In this document: positions 4,681 to 25,723 of the stretch, one piece after another
How positions within the stretch are numbered: the first letter of the stretch is position 1
How the letters are laid out: each line of letters opens with the position of its first letter
Assembly: GCA_947629745.1 (NCBI GenBank)
Contig: CANREZ010000010.1
Span: 1-33,599, forward strand
DNA from: an uncultured Clostridia bacterium
GTDB taxonomy: Bacteria; Bacillota; Clostridia; Christensenellales; UBA1242
Length of the DNA stretch: 33,599 nucleotides
Direction: 5' to 3'
The notes under the pieces: generated by a model
Told to the model about the DNA's origin: nothing
The model's input: the letters and a program-made list of their open reading frames with translations, nothing else
Database searches by the model: none
Position numbers and translations under genes: made by a program

Positions 4681-5805
4681 TTATAGGGTAGAATCCGCTT
4701 CTTTCTCTTCATCCGGACGTAGGCGAATAACCGTTGCAGCTCGTTTCCTGATATCGTCACTCATTGCAGCATAGTGCTTCCTTGTAGTATTGACGTCCTT
4801 GTGGCCAAGCACATCAGCTACGACGTAAATATCGTTAGTTTGCTTGTAGAGGTTAGTGCCAAAAGTACTACGCAATTTGTGTGGGGTGATATGCTTTAGA
4901 GGGGTGACAATGCTTGCGTATTTCTTGATCAATTTCTCAACTGCACGCACCGACATACGCTTATTTTGCATACTTAGGAAGAATGCGTCTTCGCTGCCGG
5001 GCTCGGCCTTTATCTCCATCCTTTGTGGCAAGTATTGTAGCAAGGCTTCCTTTACGTCGTCATTGAAGTAGAGGATCACTTTGTTGCCACCTTTCCTCGT
5101 GATGGAGAATGCGTTGTTATCAAAGTCTATATCCTTGATATTTAGCCCCACGCACTCCGAGATACGAATGCCTGTGCCAAGGAATAGTGACACCATAGCA
5201 TAGTCGCGAGCTTTCGTGTGATTGTGAAAATTTCGCTGCTGCTGAGAGAGTCCCTCACCAGTCTCAGATAGGTCCAACATATCTCGCACTTCGTCCTCTT
5301 CGAGCCTAATTATAGGCTTTTCGTGAATCTTTGGAGTATCGATCTTTGAGGCTACATTGCTATCCAATTTTTCGTGTTTGAATAGATACTTAAATAGTGC
5401 ACGGATGGCCGACAATTTCCTAGCCTTGGCGCGTTCGCCATTTCGCATCACAGTGCCATCCTCTTGCTGATAAACTGAGCAGTATGATAGGAACATCTCT
5501 ATATGCGTGCTGGTTACTTTCTTTAGATCCTCAGTCTTGATACTCTTAATATCTCGTCCATAAAATTCCTCGGTATCGGTGGTGAGGAAATCAAAGAAAA
5601 GCTTGAGATCTCTAGCGTATCCCAGCCTGGTTAGCGGGGTAGTATTTTGCTCGATTCCAAGCAAAAATTCTGAGCAACAAAAGGGCAATTCCATCTTTAA
5701 ATTGCGAATTTTTAGGATATTTTTCTCATCGCGCTTGCTAAAATAATCTTGATTTTGTTTTTCCATACTATCATTATAATTATTTTGCGAATAGTTGTAA
5801 AACAA
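4681..5805 (-). CDS. Tyrosine recombinase, XerS/XerD-like
   Basis: A site-specific tyrosine recombinase. All six catalytic positions are visible: R214 (TGIRISE), K238 (TRKGGN), H309 and R312 (HKLR), H335 (LGHKD) and Y345 (KHY). A SAM-like N-terminal core-binding domain covers about residues 40-150. The length and the insert after the first domain resemble XerS, the single-protein chromosome-dimer resolvase of streptococci, more than XerC or XerD; a phage-type integrase is less likely next to lexA. The start is uncertain: the full frame begins with TTG at 5805, ATGs follow at 5766 and 5694, and none has a clear ribosome binding site. The first codons contain a 14-bp sequence that recurs in a palindrome at 7201-7234. 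Confidence 0.85.
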   Translation of the reverse strand: MFYNYSQNNYNDSMEKQNQDYFSKRDEKNILKIRNLKMELPFCCSEFLLGIEQNTTPLTRLGYARDLKLFFDFLTTDTEEFYGRDIKSIKTEDLKKVTSTHIEMFLSYCSVYQQEDGTVMRNGERAKARKLSAIRALFKYLFKHEKLDSNVASKIDTPKIHEKPIIRLEEDEVRDMLDLSETGEGLSQQQRNFHNHTKARDYAMVSLFLGTGIRISECVGLNIKDIDFDNNAFSITRKGGNKVILYFNDDVKEALLQYLPQRMEIKAEPGSEDAFFLSMQNKRMSVRAVEKLIKKYASIVTPLKHITPHKLRSTFGTNLYKQTNDIYVVADVLGHKDVNTTRKHYAAMSDDIRKRAATVIRLRPDEEKEADSTL

Positions 5806-5885: not shown

Positions 5886-5906
5886 ATATTAAAAGTGGAG
5901 GGTATT

Positions 5907-6818
5907 TTGGATAAACTTGTAGATAGACTTCAGACAAACCTAGAATATGATGAGTTTGACCTAATTAGGAATAACTTCATTGAGGTTGTGCGTGGCATGA
6001 TTGCTGATATCATAGCGGACAAGCCTATGTTTGATATTAGTGACTTTGACCTATATTACTGCGATGATTATAGCACTCACACCAATTGTAACAAAGTGGG
6101 CGACAACATCCTATACATTGAGATTAGCCAACCTAGGAATATAAAGGCTGACCAGCCACGTTCGTCGCGCCTATTTAGACAAAAGAAAGTGAGGATGCCA
6201 AAGTTGCACTACGAACTATTTGACTTTAGGCGAGACTTATTCGATAAGTGTGTAGCATCATTCGATAGCAACACCAAGATGTGGATGACAAAGTTTGGCA
6301 TCACGCTTGCCCACGCTGAAGATATCCACGGCAATGGCACATATCAGTCTTTCAAGTTCCAATTAATCCCATGCCTGTCTTATTCAGATATGGATAACGA
6401 CAATCTAGGAGTTATTTACTCAAACGAATATGGCAATAATGTGCAGATAGAATATCCGAAGCTAGCCCTAAAGAATTTTGAGAAGAAAAACCGCGCCACA
6501 AAAGGTTGGTACACCAAAAGTTGTTGTATACTAAAAAATCTACTTCTAAGCGACCCAAAATATGACGTTGTGACGAGCAAAGTGGTAGAAAATATCATGT
6601 ACAACGTGCCAAACGAGGTGTTACTAGATGATAAAAGCGGGCAGTTATTCAAACTACTAAATTATATCAGGAATTGCTCGATCGACAATTGCAAGTCAAT
6701 GGATGAGCAAGCATATATCTTCAAAGACGACAATAGATCAATATCCTATATATATGCCAAGAAGATTCTAAAAGCCATGGAAGACCAGTTAAAGAAAATA
6801 ATTGCAACTACTAAATGA
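5907..6818 (+). CDS. Unrecognised protein, possibly a degenerate nucleotidyltransferase
   Basis: A 303-residue soluble protein that I do not recognise with certainty. The TTG at 5907 is preferred over the GTG at 5895 because GGAGGG (5897-5902) sits five bases before it. Two segments recall the OAS/CD-NTase nucleotidyltransferase fold. Residues 52-72 (start DDYSTHTN, end LYIEI) could correspond to the GS...D-x-D strand-turn. The PKLALKNFEKKNRATKGWY stretch (184-202) followed by LKN resembles the P-h-x-x-N...T...Y...K-N region after the catalytic core. The third catalytic Asp would be Gln here (FQLIP, about 151-155), and the GS pair is missing, so it would be inactive. The gene stands alone, followed by its own terminator. 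Fold assignment is a guess; that it is a real gene is well supported by promoter, RBS and codon use. Confidence 0.75.
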   Translation: MDKLVDRLQTNLEYDEFDLIRNNFIEVVRGMIADIIADKPMFDISDFDLYYCDDYSTHTNCNKVGDNILYIEISQPRNIKADQPRSSRLFRQKKVRMPKLHYELFDFRRDLFDKCVASFDSNTKMWMTKFGITLAHAEDIHGNGTYQSFKFQLIPCLSYSDMDNDNLGVIYSNEYGNNVQIEYPKLALKNFEKKNRATKGWYTKSCCILKNLLLSDPKYDVVTSKVVENIMYNVPNEVLLDDKSGQLFKLLNYIRNCSIDNCKSMDEQAYIFKDDNRSISYIYAKKILKAMEDQLKKIIATTK

Positions 6819-14858: not shown

Positions 14859-14934
14859 AGGCGAATAGCTCAGCTGGTAGAGTCGCGGTCTCCAAAACCG
14901 TTGGTCGTGGGTTCGAGTCCTACTTCGCCTGCCA
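14859..14934 (+). tRNA. tRNA-Trp (CCA)
   Basis: A full cloverleaf with acceptor stem AGGCGAA / TTCGCCT, anticodon loop CTCCAAA (anticodon CCA), T arm GGGTTCGAGTCC, discriminator G and encoded CCA. The last bases, CGCCTGCCAA, recur at 17055-17064, which suggests integration of an element at this tRNA. Confidence 0.97.
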
Positions 14935-14939
14935 AGAGT

Positions 14940-14977
14940 AACCTAAATCGAACACTCGGTTTAGGTTTGTTTTTTTT
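14940..14977 (+). terminator. Terminator after tRNA-Trp
   Basis: An 11-bp stem AACCTAAATCG / CGGTTTAGGTT (one G-U pair), loop AACACT, followed by TGTTTTTTTT. Read-through would serve the 72-aa ORF. Confidence 0.9.
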
Positions 14978-14992
14978 ATAAAAGGAGAAACT

Positions 14993-15211
14993 ATGCAAAA
15001 TAATAAATTACAAATCTTAAGAGAAACTTTAATAGCATATGCTAAAGAGCTTGACGAATGTAGCGGTAAAATTTTGGAAGCTATTAATCATATAGATGAG
15101 GCATCTAACATTCTTGCAAGTTTGCCACAAGATGTTCAAAACGATATTGAAAAAATCATTGCTCCCGTTTTACTTGCTGGTGGAATATCACTTTTCAATA
15201 ATCATGGCTAA
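14993..15211 (+). CDS. Small helical protein of unknown function
   Basis: A 72-residue ORF with a good RBS (AAGGAG, seven bases before ATG). The sequence is almost wholly helix-forming, with an acidic amphipathic middle (ELDECSGKILEAINHIDEASN) and a more hydrophobic end (IIAPVLLAGGISLF). I recognise no family. It lies just behind the tRNA-Trp terminator and converges on the Mrr-like gene, so it may be part of the island cargo and live on read-through from the tRNA promoter. AT-rich codon choice sets it apart from the core genes. Confidence 0.65.
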   Translation: MQNNKLQILRETLIAYAKELDECSGKILEAINHIDEASNILASLPQDVQNDIEKIIAPVLLAGGISLFNNHG

Positions 15212-15323
15212 CTTTACGCTGTGAAAAGTATTTGTCAAGAGTTTGAATGGTTTAATATATCAAATGGCAAAGATTAAATATCATCTAATGCTCTTTATCT
15301 GCCTATATTATTTTATAATAAAA

Positions 15324-16904
15324 TTAATTGTTTTGCTGAAGGTATTCTTTAGAAAGAGCTTTTATTTGACTATTATTCAAAGAATCAAATTTGTTAATTA
15401 ATGAATCTAATTCATTTACCTCTTGCTGAATTTCTTGTGTTTTTGCCTGAAATTCTTGTGTTTTTGCATATAATTCACCACTAAGTTTATCAATTTGCTT
15501 TCTTAATTTACAATTTTCAATATTTAATTGCTTAATTTTCTTATCAGTGTCTGATATGTATGTGGAAGGGTCGTTAATAAAAGCATCTTTTATAAGTGCT
15601 TTTAACTCATCTCTATCTATCAATCTTACATTAGCATCCTTTGCATATTCTTTTGCTTGCTTAGTAAATGTGCTATTCGTAATAACCCAAGCATCCTTTG
15701 TTTTGTATCTCGCCATTGAACTATAGACTTCTTGAACAGCGTGAAATCCGACTACACCATTATATAGTTTGCACTGCACGCTGATAGATTTGTTCAATAT
15801 TAAGTCCGCCCCAAAGTCTCCACTGCTTTTTGTCTTGAGTGCAGAATAACCTAGCGCAGAAAACAATTTTACACAGTATTCTTCAAAATCCAAACCAGTT
15901 AAATTATCAACATAACTAATCTCTGATAAAACTATGTTGCTATTATATTTCTTTATATCCCGTTTATATCGCTTTATCTTGTTTTGATTACTTCTAATTT
16001 TTGATGAGAGTTCACTGATGTTCGTGTCAAATGGCTTTTTAATAATCTGAAGTTCTTTGTTTAGCTCAATAGCGCGGTTAGTTAACCATACTAAAAGTTT
16101 TTTCTTTCGTTTTAACCTTATGCATATTAGCGAAATGAGCGTGATTAAACCTATGATTATTAAACTTGAAATAGTAACTATTACAGAGTATGCAGCGACA
16201 CTATAGTGATTATCATTAAACGCAATGCCGCCAATAATTATAAAAGTAATTGGAATTGTAAGTAAAATTATTAAAATGAATATTTTTTGACTCACTGAAA
16301 TATTTTTAATTATGTCTTTAAAATTAAACTTACTTTGATTTTTCCATTGGATGATAAATGTAGATACTAAAGCAATCAAAGTGATTAAAAAAGGGACTGT
16401 TAAACAAAAACCTAGAGGCATAAAATAAGATCCTGTTTCGCTTATAGTTTTTAGCGCGAAGATTTCTCCTGAAATTTTTTGGTATTCAATTTTTTCAATA
16501 AAATAATTGTTACATATTTGCTTAACTTGATTTTCACCATTTATAATATTTGTTCCATCATAAATAAGAATTTCTATTTTAACTTTTTTCTCAGGAGTTA
16601 AGGTATAAGCAATAACATTTTTAAAAACATAGACTGAATCATCACGTTTATCACGACAATATAAAAGTATATCATTTGATTTTATTTCTAAATCACTATT
16701 ACTGCAATTTATAATTTCACCATTTGCAGTTACATTCTTATAATTGTCATGTAAAGCAAACGATCCTTCTATACGTAAAACCTCTGAAGTTTTAGCTTCG
16801 TTTGACCATACATAATATCCAGTTAGTTTATAAAATTCCTTGAAACCATAAAATATGGCTCCAATTATAAAAATTATTAAGAATATGTAAAATGTCCTTT
16901 TCAT
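15324..16904 (-). CDS. Membrane-anchored Mrr-like restriction endonuclease
   Basis: A 526-residue protein with hydrophobic segments at about 4-25, 162-185, 207-229 and 237-262, and a hydrophilic region (30-150) that may lie outside the cell. The cytoplasmic half starts with a helical stretch (270-325) and holds an Mrr-type nuclease domain at about 335-437. The motif residues are E341/E342, D367 (GDFGAD) and Q377-x-K379 (VQCKLY), as in the Mrr/DUF2034 branch of the PD-(D/E)xK fold, where Gln replaces Glu. A coiled coil ends the protein (455-525) and contains a short repeat AKTQEFQAKTQEIQ. The start is supported by AAGGGA and a promoter. Function is probably cleavage of foreign DNA; specificity is unknown. 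No modification methylase is nearby. Confidence 0.85.
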   Translation of the reverse strand: MKRTFYIFLIIFIIGAIFYGFKEFYKLTGYYVWSNEAKTSEVLRIEGSFALHDNYKNVTANGEIINCSNSDLEIKSNDILLYCRDKRDDSVYVFKNVIAYTLTPEKKVKIEILIYDGTNIINGENQVKQICNNYFIEKIEYQKISGEIFALKTISETGSYFMPLGFCLTVPFLITLIALVSTFIIQWKNQSKFNFKDIIKNISVSQKIFILIILLTIPITFIIIGGIAFNDNHYSVAAYSVIVTISSLIIIGLITLISLICIRLKRKKKLLVWLTNRAIELNKELQIIKKPFDTNISELSSKIRSNQNKIKRYKRDIKKYNSNIVLSEISYVDNLTGLDFEEYCVKLFSALGYSALKTKSSGDFGADLILNKSISVQCKLYNGVVGFHAVQEVYSSMARYKTKDAWVITNSTFTKQAKEYAKDANVRLIDRDELKALIKDAFINDPSTYISDTDKKIKQLNIENCKLRKQIDKLSGELYAKTQEFQAKTQEIQQEVNELDSLINKFDSLNNSQIKALSKEYLQQNN

Positions 16905-16924
16905 AAAATCCCTTAACTGTATTT

Positions 16925-16953
16925 AGTTTAACATAGTTGAAAAAATTTTACAA
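16925..16953 (-). promoter_or_regulatory. Promoter of the Mrr-like gene
   Basis: On the - strand TTGTAA (16953-16948), 17 bases, TAAACT (16930-16925), with TG ahead of the -10 box. Confidence 0.6.
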
Positions 16954-17054
16954 ATTGTTTAATTTCTATGGCCCAGATTCTTTTTTGATCATAAAAAATT
17001 ACATATGATATTCTATCTATTTAATTTATATCTGATATAAGTTTATATCGATAC

Positions 17055-17064
17055 CGCCTGCCAA
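17055..17064. repeat. Copy of the tRNA-Trp 3' end (possible attR)
   Basis: CGCCTGCCAA is identical to 14926-14935. The next bases on the right can form AAGATATCTT followed by CTTATTTTTG, which looks like what would be left behind a tRNA gene. Confidence 0.5.
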
Positions 17065-17101
17065 AGATATCTTCTTATTTTTGCACCTACTATGCAGATA
17101 G

Positions 17102-17135
17102 AAAAATGACCCTAAATATAGGGTCATTTTTTAGT
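17102..17135 (-). terminator. Terminator of rny
   Basis: A 13-bp stem AAAAATGACCCTA / TAGGGTCATTTTT with loop AATA. It ends in a T run on the - strand (and also on the + strand). Confidence 0.88.
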
Positions 17136-17159
17136 TTGCATAACTATTTGTAAAAGGTG

Positions 17160-18758
17160 TTATTTAGCTACCTCTACGCTCCTTGTCTCACGGATCACAT
17201 TGACCTTGATTTGACCTGGATATTCCATTTCCTTCTCAATCCTATTTGCGATATCCTTTGCTAGGAACAATGCTTGTTCGTCACTAATCTCCTCTGGTTT
17301 TACCATGATACGGATTTCGCGTCCTGCCTGTATTGCATAAGATTTTTCAACACCCTTGAATGAATTTGCGATCTCCTCTAGTTTTTCTAGACGCTTGATG
17401 TAATTCTCTATAGACTCACGGCGAGCGCCTGGCCTGGATGAAGATATAGCGTCTGCAGTCTGCACAAGTATTGCCTCGATGGACTCGAATGGCACTGCTC
17501 CATGGTGAGCCTCGATGCAGTGGATGACTTCCTTGCTCTCCTTGTATTTCCTACATAGGTCGACTCCGATTGACACGTGTGTGCCCTCTACTTCGTGGTC
17601 AAGTGCTTTACCTATATCATGGAGCAAACCTCCACGCTTTGCCACTGCCACATTGGCACCAACTTCGGCTGCAAGTAGCCCTGCAAGATAACTAACCTCT
17701 AGGCTGTGCTTTAACACATTTTGACCATAACTTGTTCTATATTTTAACCTGCCTAATGTCTTTACTATCTCAGGATGCATTCCGTGGATGCCGGCTTCAA
17801 ATACTGCCTGCTCTCCTGCTTCCTTCATAGTCTGCTCGATATCTTTTGTGACTTTGTCGACCATCTCCTCTATCCTTGCTGGATGGATACGGCCATCTAG
17901 TATCAGCTTCTCCAGTGAAACACGAGCAATCTCACGTCTCACTGGGTCAAAGCATGATAGCACGACCGAGTCTGGTGTATCGTCGATGATAAGGTCACAT
18001 CCGGTAGCCTGCTCGATTGCGCGGATATTCCTACCCTCACGACCAATCAGTCTTCCCTTCATCTCATCGTTTGGAAGTGCAACTGACGTTACAGTTATCT
18101 CACTTGCCTGGTCACAAGCCACCTTCTGTATTGCGAGAGTCACTATATTTCGAGCCTTTTTGTCGGCCTCTTCCTTTGCCTGCTCTTCAATATTCTTCAC
18201 TAAGACTGCGGCGTCTTTCTTTGCCTCATCCTCGTATGCTGCGATCAGTTCTTTCTTCGCTTGATCCTTGGTTAGTCCTGAGATGCTTTCCAGTTTCTTT
18301 AACATCTCAGCCTTGATACCCTCTTGCTCCTCACGCAATTTATCTAAAGTTTGCTCTCTCTTTTGAAGATTTTCCTTTTCCTCATCAAGTTGGGATTGCT
18401 TCTTGTCTAGCATCTCCTCTTTCTTATTGATGAAATCTTCTCTTTGGAGAATTCTATTCTCCGTTTTTTGCATTTCTGCGCGTCGTTCTTTCAGTTCAGC
18501 GTCACATTCGCTGCGTAATTTCTGAGTCTCCTCTTTTGCTTCGAGGATAGCCTCTTTCTTTGCTAGTTTTGCATCATTAAGTGCTTCCTGGACAATATTG
18601 TTTGCGGTTGCACGACTCTTGTCCAATTTCTTCTTAGATATTAGATAGTAAACAAGGATTCCAACCCCTGCACCTGCCAATAATCCAATTACTACAAATG
18701 CAATTGTGAGCCCAACTGAGACACTCGACAGCATATTACAAAATTGTAAATTTGTCAT
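17160..18758 (-). CDS. rny: Ribonuclease Y
   Basis: RNase Y is the membrane-bound endonuclease that starts mRNA decay in many Bacillota. The 532-residue protein has an N-terminal membrane helix (about 15-40), a long charged coiled coil (45-200), a KH RNA-binding domain ([18 protein letters not shown]), and an HD domain ([26 protein letters not shown]) with the metal-binding His-Asp pair. The ATG at 18758 is behind AAGGAGATAG. It has its own consensus promoter, an AT hairpin in the leader and a terminator, so it is monocistronic. Confidence 0.97.
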
Positions 18759-23992: not shown

Positions 23993-25723
23993 ATGAAAAA
24001 ATCAAAGTTAATTGGCACACTGATTGCAGGTATGAGTATAGCGTGTGCTCTTAGTGGCTGCTCTATGGGAGGCACCGAGGCCACAATCAGGGATAATTTA
24101 TCGCGAAATTTGAATAATCTAACTAGCGTAGTAAAGAGGATGGATACACTAGATTCTCATTATTTGCCAAGCGAGGACGAGGCGATAATCACAAGTATCG
24201 CAACCCCTCCACAGAAATATTCTGTACAGTATCTAAATGAAGACGAGGATGTAGAAAATGGAGAGAATAGTGATGAGAGTAACATTCGCCGCACACCATA
24301 TACCCATATCAGGACGACCTACAACCCAAGATTCACTACACGCTTTGTCGCATATGGACTAAACCCTATGGATGCAAGGATGAGCGAGCTGCACCTCGTA
24401 TCTAATGATGTAAATAGCGCAGATAATACCTATAGACAGACAAAAGATGAGTTACTAGGAACAATTGATGAATTGAAGTCCATGATAGATGAGATAGATT
24501 CATCGGGCTGGAATCCTACTACGGATCAAAAGAATGCCTTAAAGAATTACATTGACGAACTAAGGAATAGCATCACAAGACTGGATAGCACAATAGGTCA
24601 GATGAATAACACTATATCAGATATATCAAGGACAGGCTCAGATAGAATTACTTCTTCCTACGAGGAGCTAAATAGCAACTTCATGCGAATACTAAATCAT
24701 CTGGATATTAGGATTGCCTATCTTGAGTCCACCCTCTCCACACTCTCTAGTCTTAGGAATATCATCCTAGATAGTATGACATCCGAACAATTGCCAGATT
24801 CTAGCGATAACGAAACTATACAGCAAATGCCTGGAGACACCATCTTAGACGGCACTGACCAAGATAGGATAATGGTAGATAGTAATAGAGAAGATCCTAG
24901 TACGGATGACGTGGATAATACTACTAGGGATAATACAGTAGATAACTCTACACCTAGCACGACTGACACTATGGATGATAATGCAAATAGTTCAAATAAT
25001 GCAAATAATGCACAAAATAGTGTAAATCAAAATAGCAATGATACTGTAATAAATAGAGATGATACTGTCACAAATAATAATACTACTGACAATAACTCCA
25101 ATAATAATGACACAAATACTAGAAATGATGCAAATAATGATACCAATAATATAAATGATAATTTAGTAGATAATTCCACTCAAAATGATAATAATTTAGC
25201 AAATAATGATAACAATGATTACAACAACAATGTGGATAACAACGCTAATGATAATGTAAATGATCGTAACAATGAATCTATAAAAAATATCGATACTTAT
25301 ATAGACAACAATCTAAATAATATCGACACAATGGACCCATACTACAACCGCACTGTGGATAGCTATGATGGCGCTAACCGAAGTGAACATCTAGACGGAT
25401 ACAATAATAATCTAAATAATAACTATAATAACGGCACAAACATGGGTTACAACAATAGTAGTAATATGTACGACAACAATGTGAATGTTAGGGATAATGT
25501 AACTAATAACAATCTAAGTACACCAGATCAGATTGACCCAATGTTTGGATACAATGGGGACAATAACACAAACGCAAATAATACTACAGATATTACCGAT
25601 AACACAGATTATAATAACGGTGGGAATACAGGAATAAAGAATATTGACACATACGGCGATAACTCTCTAGATAACATGATGGGAGATAGGAACAATGCTA
25701 ATAATACTTTGGTCGTTAATTAA
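23993..25723 (+). CDS. Asn/Asp-rich lipoprotein of unknown function
   Basis: A 576-residue protein with a lipoprotein signal peptide: KK at the N-terminus, a hydrophobic stretch and the lipobox LSGC with Cys23. A middle region (about 130-260) is helical and probably a coiled coil (SMIDEIDSSGWN, RIAYLESTLSTLSSL). From about residue 300 to the end the sequence is low-complexity and dominated by Asn and Asp, encoded mostly by AAT and GAT. A motif of the form KNIDTYxDNxLxN occurs twice, near residues 425 and 552. RBS GGAGG before ATG is strong. It lies between spoVAC (divergent) and sigF (convergent), so a role in the spore envelope is conceivable, but nothing in the sequence proves it. I recognise no family. 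Confidence 0.85.
   Translation: MKKSKLIGTLIAGMSIACALSGCSMGGTEATIRDNLSRNLNNLTSVVKRMDTLDSHYLPSEDEAIITSIATPPQKYSVQYLNEDEDVENGENSDESNIRRTPYTHIRTTYNPRFTTRFVAYGLNPMDARMSELHLVSNDVNSADNTYRQTKDELLGTIDELKSMIDEIDSSGWNPTTDQKNALKNYIDELRNSITRLDSTIGQMNNTISDISRTGSDRITSSYEELNSNFMRILNHLDIRIAYLESTLSTLSSLRNIILDSMTSEQLPDSSDNETIQQMPGDTILDGTDQDRIMVDSNREDPSTDDVDNTTRDNTVDNSTPSTTDTMDDNANSSNNANNAQNSVNQNSNDTVINRDDTVTNNNTTDNNSNNNDTNTRNDANNDTNNINDNLVDNSTQNDNNLANNDNNDYNNNVDNNANDNVNDRNNESIKNIDTYIDNNLNNIDTMDPYYNRTVDSYDGANRSEHLDGYNNNLNNNYNNGTNMGYNNSSNMYDNNVNVRDNVTNNNLSTPDQIDPMFGYNGDNNTNANNTTDITDNTDYNNGGNTGIKNIDTYGDNSLDNMMGDRNNANNTLVVN

Follow-up and report, generated by a model that had tools for sequence, protein, structure and literature searches.

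A predicted membrane-anchored Mrr nuclease on a small tRNA-end cassette of an uncultured Clostridia bacterium

What is the role of a gene that joins an Mrr-type nuclease domain to a set of predicted membrane helices, and how did it come to lie behind a tRNA-Trp gene? These questions are raised by contig CANREZ010000010.1 of an uncultured Clostridia bacterium (assembly GCA_947629745.1; Christensenellales, UBA1242), of which a stretch of 33,599 nucleotides, here called the window, was analysed. The explanation that fits the locus best, the balance for and against it being about even, is that the gene encodes a membrane-anchored Mrr nuclease that cuts foreign DNA entering the cell and is carried as a cassette at a tRNA end without a recombinase. 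The nuclease gene, an open reading frame (ORF) of 526 amino acids (aa), and its parts, including the transmembrane (TM) helices, are located as follows:

15324..16904, minus strand: predicted membrane-anchored Mrr-type nuclease, cargo of the island (526-aa ORF with ATG start, Pfam, hydropathy)
16839..16895, minus strand: TM1, residues 4-22 (hydropathy)
16407..16838, minus strand: predicted outer loop or domain, residues 23-166 (loop charges)
16125..16406, minus strand: region of TM2 to TM4, residues 167-260 (hydropathy)
15591..15908, minus strand: Mrr_cat PD-(D/E)XK domain, residues 333-438, with D367, Q377 and K379 (Pfam, structure match, alignment)
15330..15569, minus strand: long C-terminal helix and likely coiled coil, residues 446-525 (AlphaFold model)

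A first-pass annotation, made from the sequence of the window, had assigned an Mrr nuclease domain to the 526-aa ORF, and the Pfam search confirmed this assignment with a Mrr_cat match at residues 333-438 (E 2.3e-28; 99 bits with a cut-off of 21). The reading frame and the catalytic D ... QxK residues are intact. An alignment was made with 41 relatives, comprising 35 nuclease matches with loci, which are part of all matches returned by the whole-genome searches, and six hand-picked proteins from plasmids and a phage; locus L012 has no nuclease match and was excluded. The column of D367 contains D in all 41 relatives, that of Q377 contains Q in 30 and that of K379 contains K in 31, with 25-50% identity across the nuclease region. 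The protein's best PADLOC match was to the Mrr tail of ZorD (2e-17), followed by one to PDC-S02, a candidate family (3.3e-16). None of the NCBIfam models fits the protein (best E 0.1), a PDB sequence search gave no Mrr match, and the winged helix Mrr_N (PF14338) was not among the best 25 of 34 Pfam matches (down to E 2.1); the same Pfam library detected PF14338 in a gene next to a related cassette in genome G603 (L168:2349-3257).

The structure of the protein was represented by a single-sequence AlphaFold model of low confidence (mean pLDDT 58, pTM 0.32), in which residues 337-409 are arranged as helix-strand-strand-strand-helix-strand and the secondary structure of a PD-(D/E)XK core is placed at residues 337-442. 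In this model the nuclease region (residues 336-442) was aligned to AF1548 (1y88) with a Z score of 13.3 and an rmsd of 2.5 over 102 residues, in agreement with a PD-(D/E)XK fold. Further structure matches were EndoMS (Z 11.2), EcoT38I (11.1) and MspJI and AspBHI (both 9.9), and only 1y88 stands clear, since unrelated coiled coils score up to Z 10.6 in the same list. The top Foldseek matches, at E 2.0e-4 to 8.4e-4, were 1y88 (first, E 2.0e-4), MspJI, AspBHI and EndoMS. The modelled long helix at residues 446-525 looks like a coiled coil, in agreement with the coiled coil annotated at the C-terminus, and the model contains a second long helix before the nuclease domain (residues 235-324, part membrane and part coil) that was absent from the annotation.

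With a simple hydropathy cut of 1.6 over 19 residues, four peaks were obtained in the protein, at residues 4-22, 167-185, 208-226 and 242-260. Counted per segment from the N-terminus to the C-terminal side, the numbers of K+R and D+E residues are 2/0, 16/20, 5/1, 0/1 and 10/4, a pattern that fits an N-terminus inside the cell, a 144-residue loop (residues 23-166) outside and the C-terminus with the nuclease inside. The four membrane helices, the cytoplasmic nuclease and the outer domain proposed in the annotation are consistent with this predicted topology. The block of the outer loop has pLDDT values of about 29-44 in the AlphaFold model, and the best match of the front part, among 309 genomes of the family, covers residues 127-265 (E 4.9e-5, 24% identity). 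Weak matches of outer-loop residues to very large ORFs were also seen, for residues 40-162 at E 7.6e-4 and for residues 50-127 at 0.003 and 0.008 (L012, L091 and L096); judged by eye, these ORFs encode repetitive, possibly surface, proteins and are a lead only.

Searches of the order yielded matches at E 0.001 or better in 63 of the 396 genomes, mostly to the nuclease domain, with a few alignments starting at residues 182-217 and others running over the last part of the nuclease into the coil. At least one membrane helix was predicted in 29 of the 35 relatives of the order and in all six hand-picked plasmid and phage relatives, and such helices are thus widespread among these Mrr relatives; the view of the first-pass annotation that fixing to the membrane is exceptional among Mrr enzymes was not supported in that form. 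Such proteins of Firmicutes genomes and plasmids likewise combine one or more predicted helices with an Mrr domain, and those of plasmids are annotated as 'restriction endonuclease'. The nuclease domain matches 408 plasmid records, and all five that were checked (L078-L081, L083) have predicted membrane helices. The 41 relatives are 155-649 aa long and have zero to three predicted helices, none of them having four; in L016 and L081, the two predicted helices are separated by about 200 and 100 residues, respectively, with room for an outer loop. A full-length relative of the 526-aa protein was not found in the collections genome_contigs, viral_contigs, plasmids or phages; no match in plasmids and phages covers 80% of the query, and the matches listed lie in the nuclease and the coil behind it. 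In the whole-genome searches of the family and the order, the full-length gene was found in the genome of the window only. Accordingly, the unusual feature of the protein is its front of four helices and an outer loop, and not the presence of membrane helices as such. Among the titles and abstract openings listed by a literature search of incomplete coverage, which leaves room for earlier work, none describes membrane Mrr proteins.

The nuclease gene lies on an island with the following boundaries:

14859..14934, plus strand: tRNA-Trp (CCA anticodon), target of the insertion (ARAGORN, Rfam)
14926..14935, plus strand: left copy of the 10-bp repeat CGCCTGCCAA, at the 3' end of the tRNA (repeat search)
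14940..14967, plus strand: left end of the element, AACCTAAATCGAAC, with a terminator-like hairpin directly behind the tRNA (12 pairs, T tail)
14936..17054, no strand: island between the repeats (drop in GC content, empty site in genome G001)
17055..17064, plus strand: right copy of the 10-bp repeat CGCCTGCCAA, right end of the element (repeat search)

The repeat CGCCTGCCAA consists of the last nine bases of the tRNA-Trp gene and one further base and is present in exactly two copies in the window; at window composition, its expected number is 1.2e-3 for the whole stretch and 1.4e-4 for the gap at 16905-17159. The GC content of the island is 0.279, compared with 0.392 on its left and 0.412 on its right, where the gene at 17160-18758 was taken for rny. 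An empty site is present in genome G001 of the same genus, in which rny, about 36 nt, the tRNA-Trp gene and rnhA follow each other with nothing between. The repeats and this empty site show that the window holds an inserted element of 2.1 kb, whose insertion point is precisely the tRNA-Trp 3' end; it carries two genes, namely an ORF of 72 aa and, as the main cargo, the nuclease gene; the two are convergent neighbours. Rfam detected nothing in the island except the tRNA. In genome G009 of the same family, other genes lie between rny and tRNA-Trp (L069 606-1831), with ORFs that resemble uracil-DNA glycosylase and flavodoxin by eye, so this spot varies between genera.

The left end of the element recurs in related genomes. 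A search of 306 genomes of the family for the pattern AACCTAAAWCGAAC found 47 sites, spread over 37 of the genomes, whereas the reversed pattern used as control was found at 23 sites. Among the 44 pattern sites that were read (those in G574 C75, G553 C69 and G657 C7 were not), CCA stands exactly 5 nt before the pattern at 37, the chance being about 1/64 for each site. The left end in the window shows the same arrangement of CCA, 5 nt, AACCTAAAWCGAAC and a hairpin at the 3' end of the tRNA, and the repeat of the tRNA end on the far side and the empty site likewise place the element in this family. Of the 41 ends compared, 29 have a complete hairpin (9 of 9 pairs), whereas 200 shuffles gave 0.21 such ends on average and never more than 2; the searches themselves had fixed the 5' arm wholly or nearly so, and left the 3' arm free except in L115. 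A T-rich tail follows in 38 of the 41 ends, and changes on both sides of a pair were noted in 7. Hairpin and T tail together give the left end the appearance of an intrinsic terminator, which would make sense because the inserted DNA separates the tRNA from the terminator that it had before. Exact repeats of at least 10 bp within 2.2 kb were found at 8 of 34 sites (the window and seven others), with no shared right half-site seen by eye; shorter repeats at G577, G621 and G654, the latter two inside ORFs, were set aside. Among the titles and abstract openings listed by a literature search of incomplete coverage, none describes tRNA-end cassettes of serine recombinases, although such a report may exist.

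The left end is moreover linked, by position and orientation, to one clade of large serine recombinases. Genome G354 encodes, in convergent orientation to the left end, a large serine recombinase of 497 aa that has Resolvase, Recombinase and zinc-ribbon domains, and relatives occupy the same place in G508 (two), G589, G568 C27 and G581 and, as a split gene, in G225. The recombinase has matches at E 1e-60 or better in 89 of 177 genomes. In a reverse test, CCA-N5-AACCTAAAWCGAAC was sought near 30 recombinases with loci, 17 of which have at least 57% identity and 13 less. Allowing up to three mismatches, the end was present on the opposite strand for 11 of the 17 (mean 0.24 and maximum 5 with 101 control patterns) and on the same strand for two; with two mismatches, it was present for 8 of the 17 (control mean 0.02, maximum 2). 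Below 57% identity, the end was found for one of the 13 recombinases. The replication gene of G225 matches REP_ORF2-G2P (PF23343), and tblastn detected a similar gene in 10 of the 17 loci. Among viral contigs, the GCCA-containing pattern was found in one, the IMG/VR contig L115, and the reversed control in none. At position 8307 of L115 the left end overlaps the 3' end of another large serine recombinase gene and is followed by a recombinase and a Rep gene of the present family, possibly as stacked elements.

Further cassettes of this kind could be delimited in other places:

G000 C2, 119243 (L146:344), 705 bp: second element end in the same genome, with a GrpB-family gene
G504, about 155 bp: no gene
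G506, 1559 bp: exact tail repeat
G569, 1278 bp: exact tail repeat
G587 (L166), 755 and 778 bp: tandem cassettes on one strand, the second repeat inside a predicted ORF
G603, 1829 bp: cassette at tRNA-Ser (region L168 397-3257), with TIR-like and HEPN-like genes

Some copies of the element are small and have no recombinase. Across the cassettes of G506, G569 and G587, the genes encode an unknown protein and a histidine phosphatase, a further unknown protein with many hydrophobic stretches, a zinc-ribbon protein and a GNAT protein. The TIR-like (PADLOC 2.7e-6) and HEPN-like (Pfam 5e-4) genes of G603 both score below the Pfam cut-off; a Mrr_N-Mrr_cat gene was observed just outside this cassette. 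Near ends without a defined far side, G654 encodes a GIY-YIG protein matching UzuA at 5.5e-29, G503 an AIPR/AbiU gene and G354 two DNA methyltransferase genes. The cargo of the element is thus mixed, and some of its genes are defence-like as judged from their family matches. A second Mrr gene stands in this kind of element in G367, a genome of another family, in which tRNA-Glu is directly followed, at locus L017, by a CCA-N5-AACCTAAATCGAAC end without mismatch. The gene that comes first after this end, with no 72-aa gene before it, encodes a protein of 443 aa for which two helices are predicted and an Mrr domain is recognised (E 3.1e-28); it shares 41% identity with the window protein over 106 nuclease residues and is otherwise not recognisably alike, so that two different membrane-Mrr genes occur in such elements. 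The far end of the L017 element was not found in the available DNA, which stops at the contig end. The other 40 Mrr loci have four or more mismatches to the element end at best.

The second gene of the island, read as a partner or control of the nuclease in the first-pass annotation, is located between the element end and the nuclease gene:

14993..15211, plus strand: 72-aa ORF, tRNA-proximal gene of the element (Shine-Dalgarno sequence, relatives; three-helix model with pLDDT 69.5)

The Shine-Dalgarno sequence and the relatives suggest that it is probably a real gene. Close relatives were found among the 309 family genomes in G354 (57%) and G503 (56%) and remote ones in the order in G225 (E 6.7e-13) and G155 (E 2.5e-12, with a stop). 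The copies in G354, G225 and G155 lie directly behind genes for tRNA-Ser, tRNA-Glu and tRNA-Tyr, respectively; at the G503 copy no tRNA was recognised and no RNA upstream scored above the Rfam gathering score. All five copies, including that of the window, follow CCA, 5 bases, AACCTAAA(T/A)CGAAC, a hairpin and a T-run. Matches in G071, G073, G176 and G358 were dropped as chance, being partial and at E 0.0017-0.0055; three lie within ORFs of 438-1204 aa, and that in G071 has two internal stops. A tblastn search of the other 41 Mrr loci, reaching at most about 1.5-2.5 kb on each side, detected no 72-aa ORF. A 102-aa ORF near the G503 copy has a sub-threshold Mrr_cat_2 match (E 0.0038; 17.5 bits with a cut-off of 22). 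No convincing family match of the 72-aa protein was obtained in Pfam (best E 0.033), NCBIfam (0.15), PHROGs or PADLOC, and its model gave no structural match, all E-values being above 5. A role as recombination directionality factor or excisionase was considered and is unproven, there being no convincing family or structural match. The idea of a dedicated partner of the nuclease was rejected in its simple form, since copies follow the element end beside other genes, and the ORF is more plausibly the leading gene of the mobile element.

From these data, we infer that the Mrr endonuclease is fixed to the inner face of the membrane and probably cuts foreign DNA on arrival. The catalytic residues are intact and the membrane anchor is predicted, in keeping with the suggestion of the first-pass annotation that a membrane-fixed nuclease could act on entering DNA, and the position of the gene on an inserted island lends indirect support to a role in defence. 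The front of four helices and an outer loop would decide the location of the protein or what is sensed, the coiled coils would hold the nuclease in an oligomer, and the anchoring would keep it off the chromosome, as shown for the unrelated protein SNIPE. The cassette of 2.1 kb belongs to an element family in which some members encode a large serine recombinase, and its movement would be catalysed in trans. The location of the cassette behind a tRNA gene points to a portable defence against incoming DNA.

Several observations weigh against this explanation. The front of about 300 residues has weak partial matches only, so that its role is a guess. The anchoring and topology are predicted from hydropathy and charge only, and the AlphaFold model is poor outside the nuclease. 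Much of the element cargo (GrpB, histidine phosphatase, GNAT, CYTH) is not clearly related to defence. The island contains no large serine recombinase and the 973-kb assembly (95% complete) no PF07508 match, which makes present mobility doubtful and the window cassette either non-autonomous or decayed. With respect to the family signature, CCA is missing at the set spacing in 7 of the 44 sites, of which G621 is off by one and those in G604, G020, G636 (two), G012 and G553 C50 look like chance; ARAGORN recognised a tRNA directly upstream at 17 of 34 sites, and G248 has two CCA-spaced sites away from tRNAs. Hairpins with at least 7 of 9 pairs are weak evidence, occurring in 38 of the 41 ends but also in a mean of 19 and up to 26 shuffled ends, and tblastn found the 72-aa gene at only 3 of 34 element-end sites. 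Finally, the end is missing near 6 of the 17 recombinases (L183-L186, L188 and L198) within the locus DNA examined, and the identity limit of 57% was set after the matches were known.

The same domain arrangement might serve a membrane-triggered suicide effector, in which the front senses envelope damage or phage proteins, the Mrr domain is released and the cell's own chromosome is cut, so that the cell dies before phage release. A single gene does combine a possible sensor, helices, a coil and a nuclease, and the cited parts of the EcoKMrr report describe a tetramer in the uninduced state and an activated form that damages host DNA (PMC12707154). We regard this course as unlikely, however, as the sequence carries no sign of self-targeting, no other island gene suggests signalling, and anchoring protects the chromosome in SNIPE according to the cited parts of that report (PMC13190303). 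A target closer to the element itself is conceivable, the nuclease acting mainly on rival plasmids, rolling-circle elements or related elements and thereby keeping the cassette in place. This exclusion would suit the Rep genes found beside the recombinases and the 408 plasmid records with a matching nuclease domain and, in the five checked, predicted membrane helices; differing from entry-point defence in the target alone, with overlapping chemistry, it appears quite unlikely to us.

A single system of two genes, for example inhibitor and nuclease, would suit the convergent arrangement of the 72-aa ORF and the nuclease gene as neighbours on one island. It is made very improbable by the four other accepted copies of the small gene, which follow the same element end beside other genes, by its absence from all 41 other Mrr loci over the at most about 1.5-2.5 kb searched on each side, a check that the claim of a partner had called for, and by L017, where the Mrr gene comes first behind the end. 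It is likewise rather improbable that the nuclease gene is an ordinary passenger outside defence, or one with a part in DNA turnover or uptake at the membrane, even though the cargo of the element is mixed and the full-length gene was found in one genome only; both the catalytic residues and the reading frame are intact, Mrr domains are known best from restriction, and the best PADLOC matches are ZorD and candidate defence families.

If the preferred reading of a membrane-anchored nuclease acting on entering DNA is true, DNA cutting at the point of entry, as demonstrated for the GIY-YIG protein SNIPE, extends to Mrr nucleases, many of which have predicted membrane helices. The signature of tRNA CCA, 5 nt, AACCTAAAWCGAAC and hairpin is a simple finder for portable accessory genes in uncultured Clostridia, and the cassette makes the spread of tiny elements without recombinase among tRNA genes directly testable. 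A wider proposal, which we advance as a doubtful one, is that Clostridia with small genomes keep an integron-like stock of cassettes of one or two genes at many tRNA 3' ends. A single clade of large serine recombinases accepting many tRNA ends would move these cassettes in trans, the left end would unite a half attachment site with a replacement terminator, and membrane-Mrr nucleases would be recurring cargo that stops DNA on entry as SNIPE does, though by means of another nuclease. A tyrosine integrase of the integron type was not recognised in the genome of the window, its sole Phage_integrase match (window 4681-5805) reaching 80 bits with a cut-off of 265 for integron integrase and being closest to XerS, below the cut-off. 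Next to this Xer-like gene, at 5895-6818, a 307-aa protein has a sub-threshold NCBIfam match to the antiphage nucleotidyltransferase DS2_2 (E 1.7e-11; 44 bits with a cut-off of 350). Elsewhere in the window, at 23993-25723, a 576-aa protein without clear family has a sub-threshold Relaxase_C match (E 0.00047).

Among known systems, SNIPE (PD-lambda-1) is a membrane-anchored GIY-YIG nuclease that cuts phage DNA during injection and is toxic once freed from the membrane; as described in the cited parts of the report, its homologues have highly variable N-terminal fronts and one predicted transmembrane helix in 59% and two in 7% of cases (PMC13190303). On this description, a single gene specifies SNIPE as it does the window protein, for which hydropathy and charge predict a membrane anchor and a cytoplasmic catalytic domain like those of SNIPE. 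SNIPE differs by its combination of DUF4041 and GIY-YIG, neither of which was among the best 25 of 34 Pfam matches (down to E 2.1) of the window protein, whereas the latter joins an Mrr PD-(D/E)XK domain to four predicted helices and an extensive outer loop. A word search of the main text of the SNIPE paper found no occurrence of 'Mrr' (PMC13190303). EcoKMrr and other Mrr type IV restriction enzymes share the Mrr_cat domain with its D ... QxK site, and EcoKMrr has an N-terminal winged helix, according to the cited parts of its description (PMC12707154), in the place of the membrane and outer region of the window protein. The Zorya protein ZorD shares the C-terminal Mrr-like domain, the PADLOC match being limited to model positions 918-1063 of 1071, but the window protein has no helicase and the two-gene island no other Zorya gene. 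The SCC elements of staphylococci are likewise cassettes that large serine recombinases insert into a gene at its 3' end; they have direct repeats, can form tandem arrays and include copies without recombinase. They differ in their target, which is rlmH instead of tRNA genes, in their much larger size and in their recombinases. Tycheposons carry cargo at tRNA genes and are known for tyrosine recombinases, whereas the family described here is linked to a large serine recombinase. In this company, the nuclease is a variant within the known Mrr kind, and the surrounding family of cassettes is the more surprising part.

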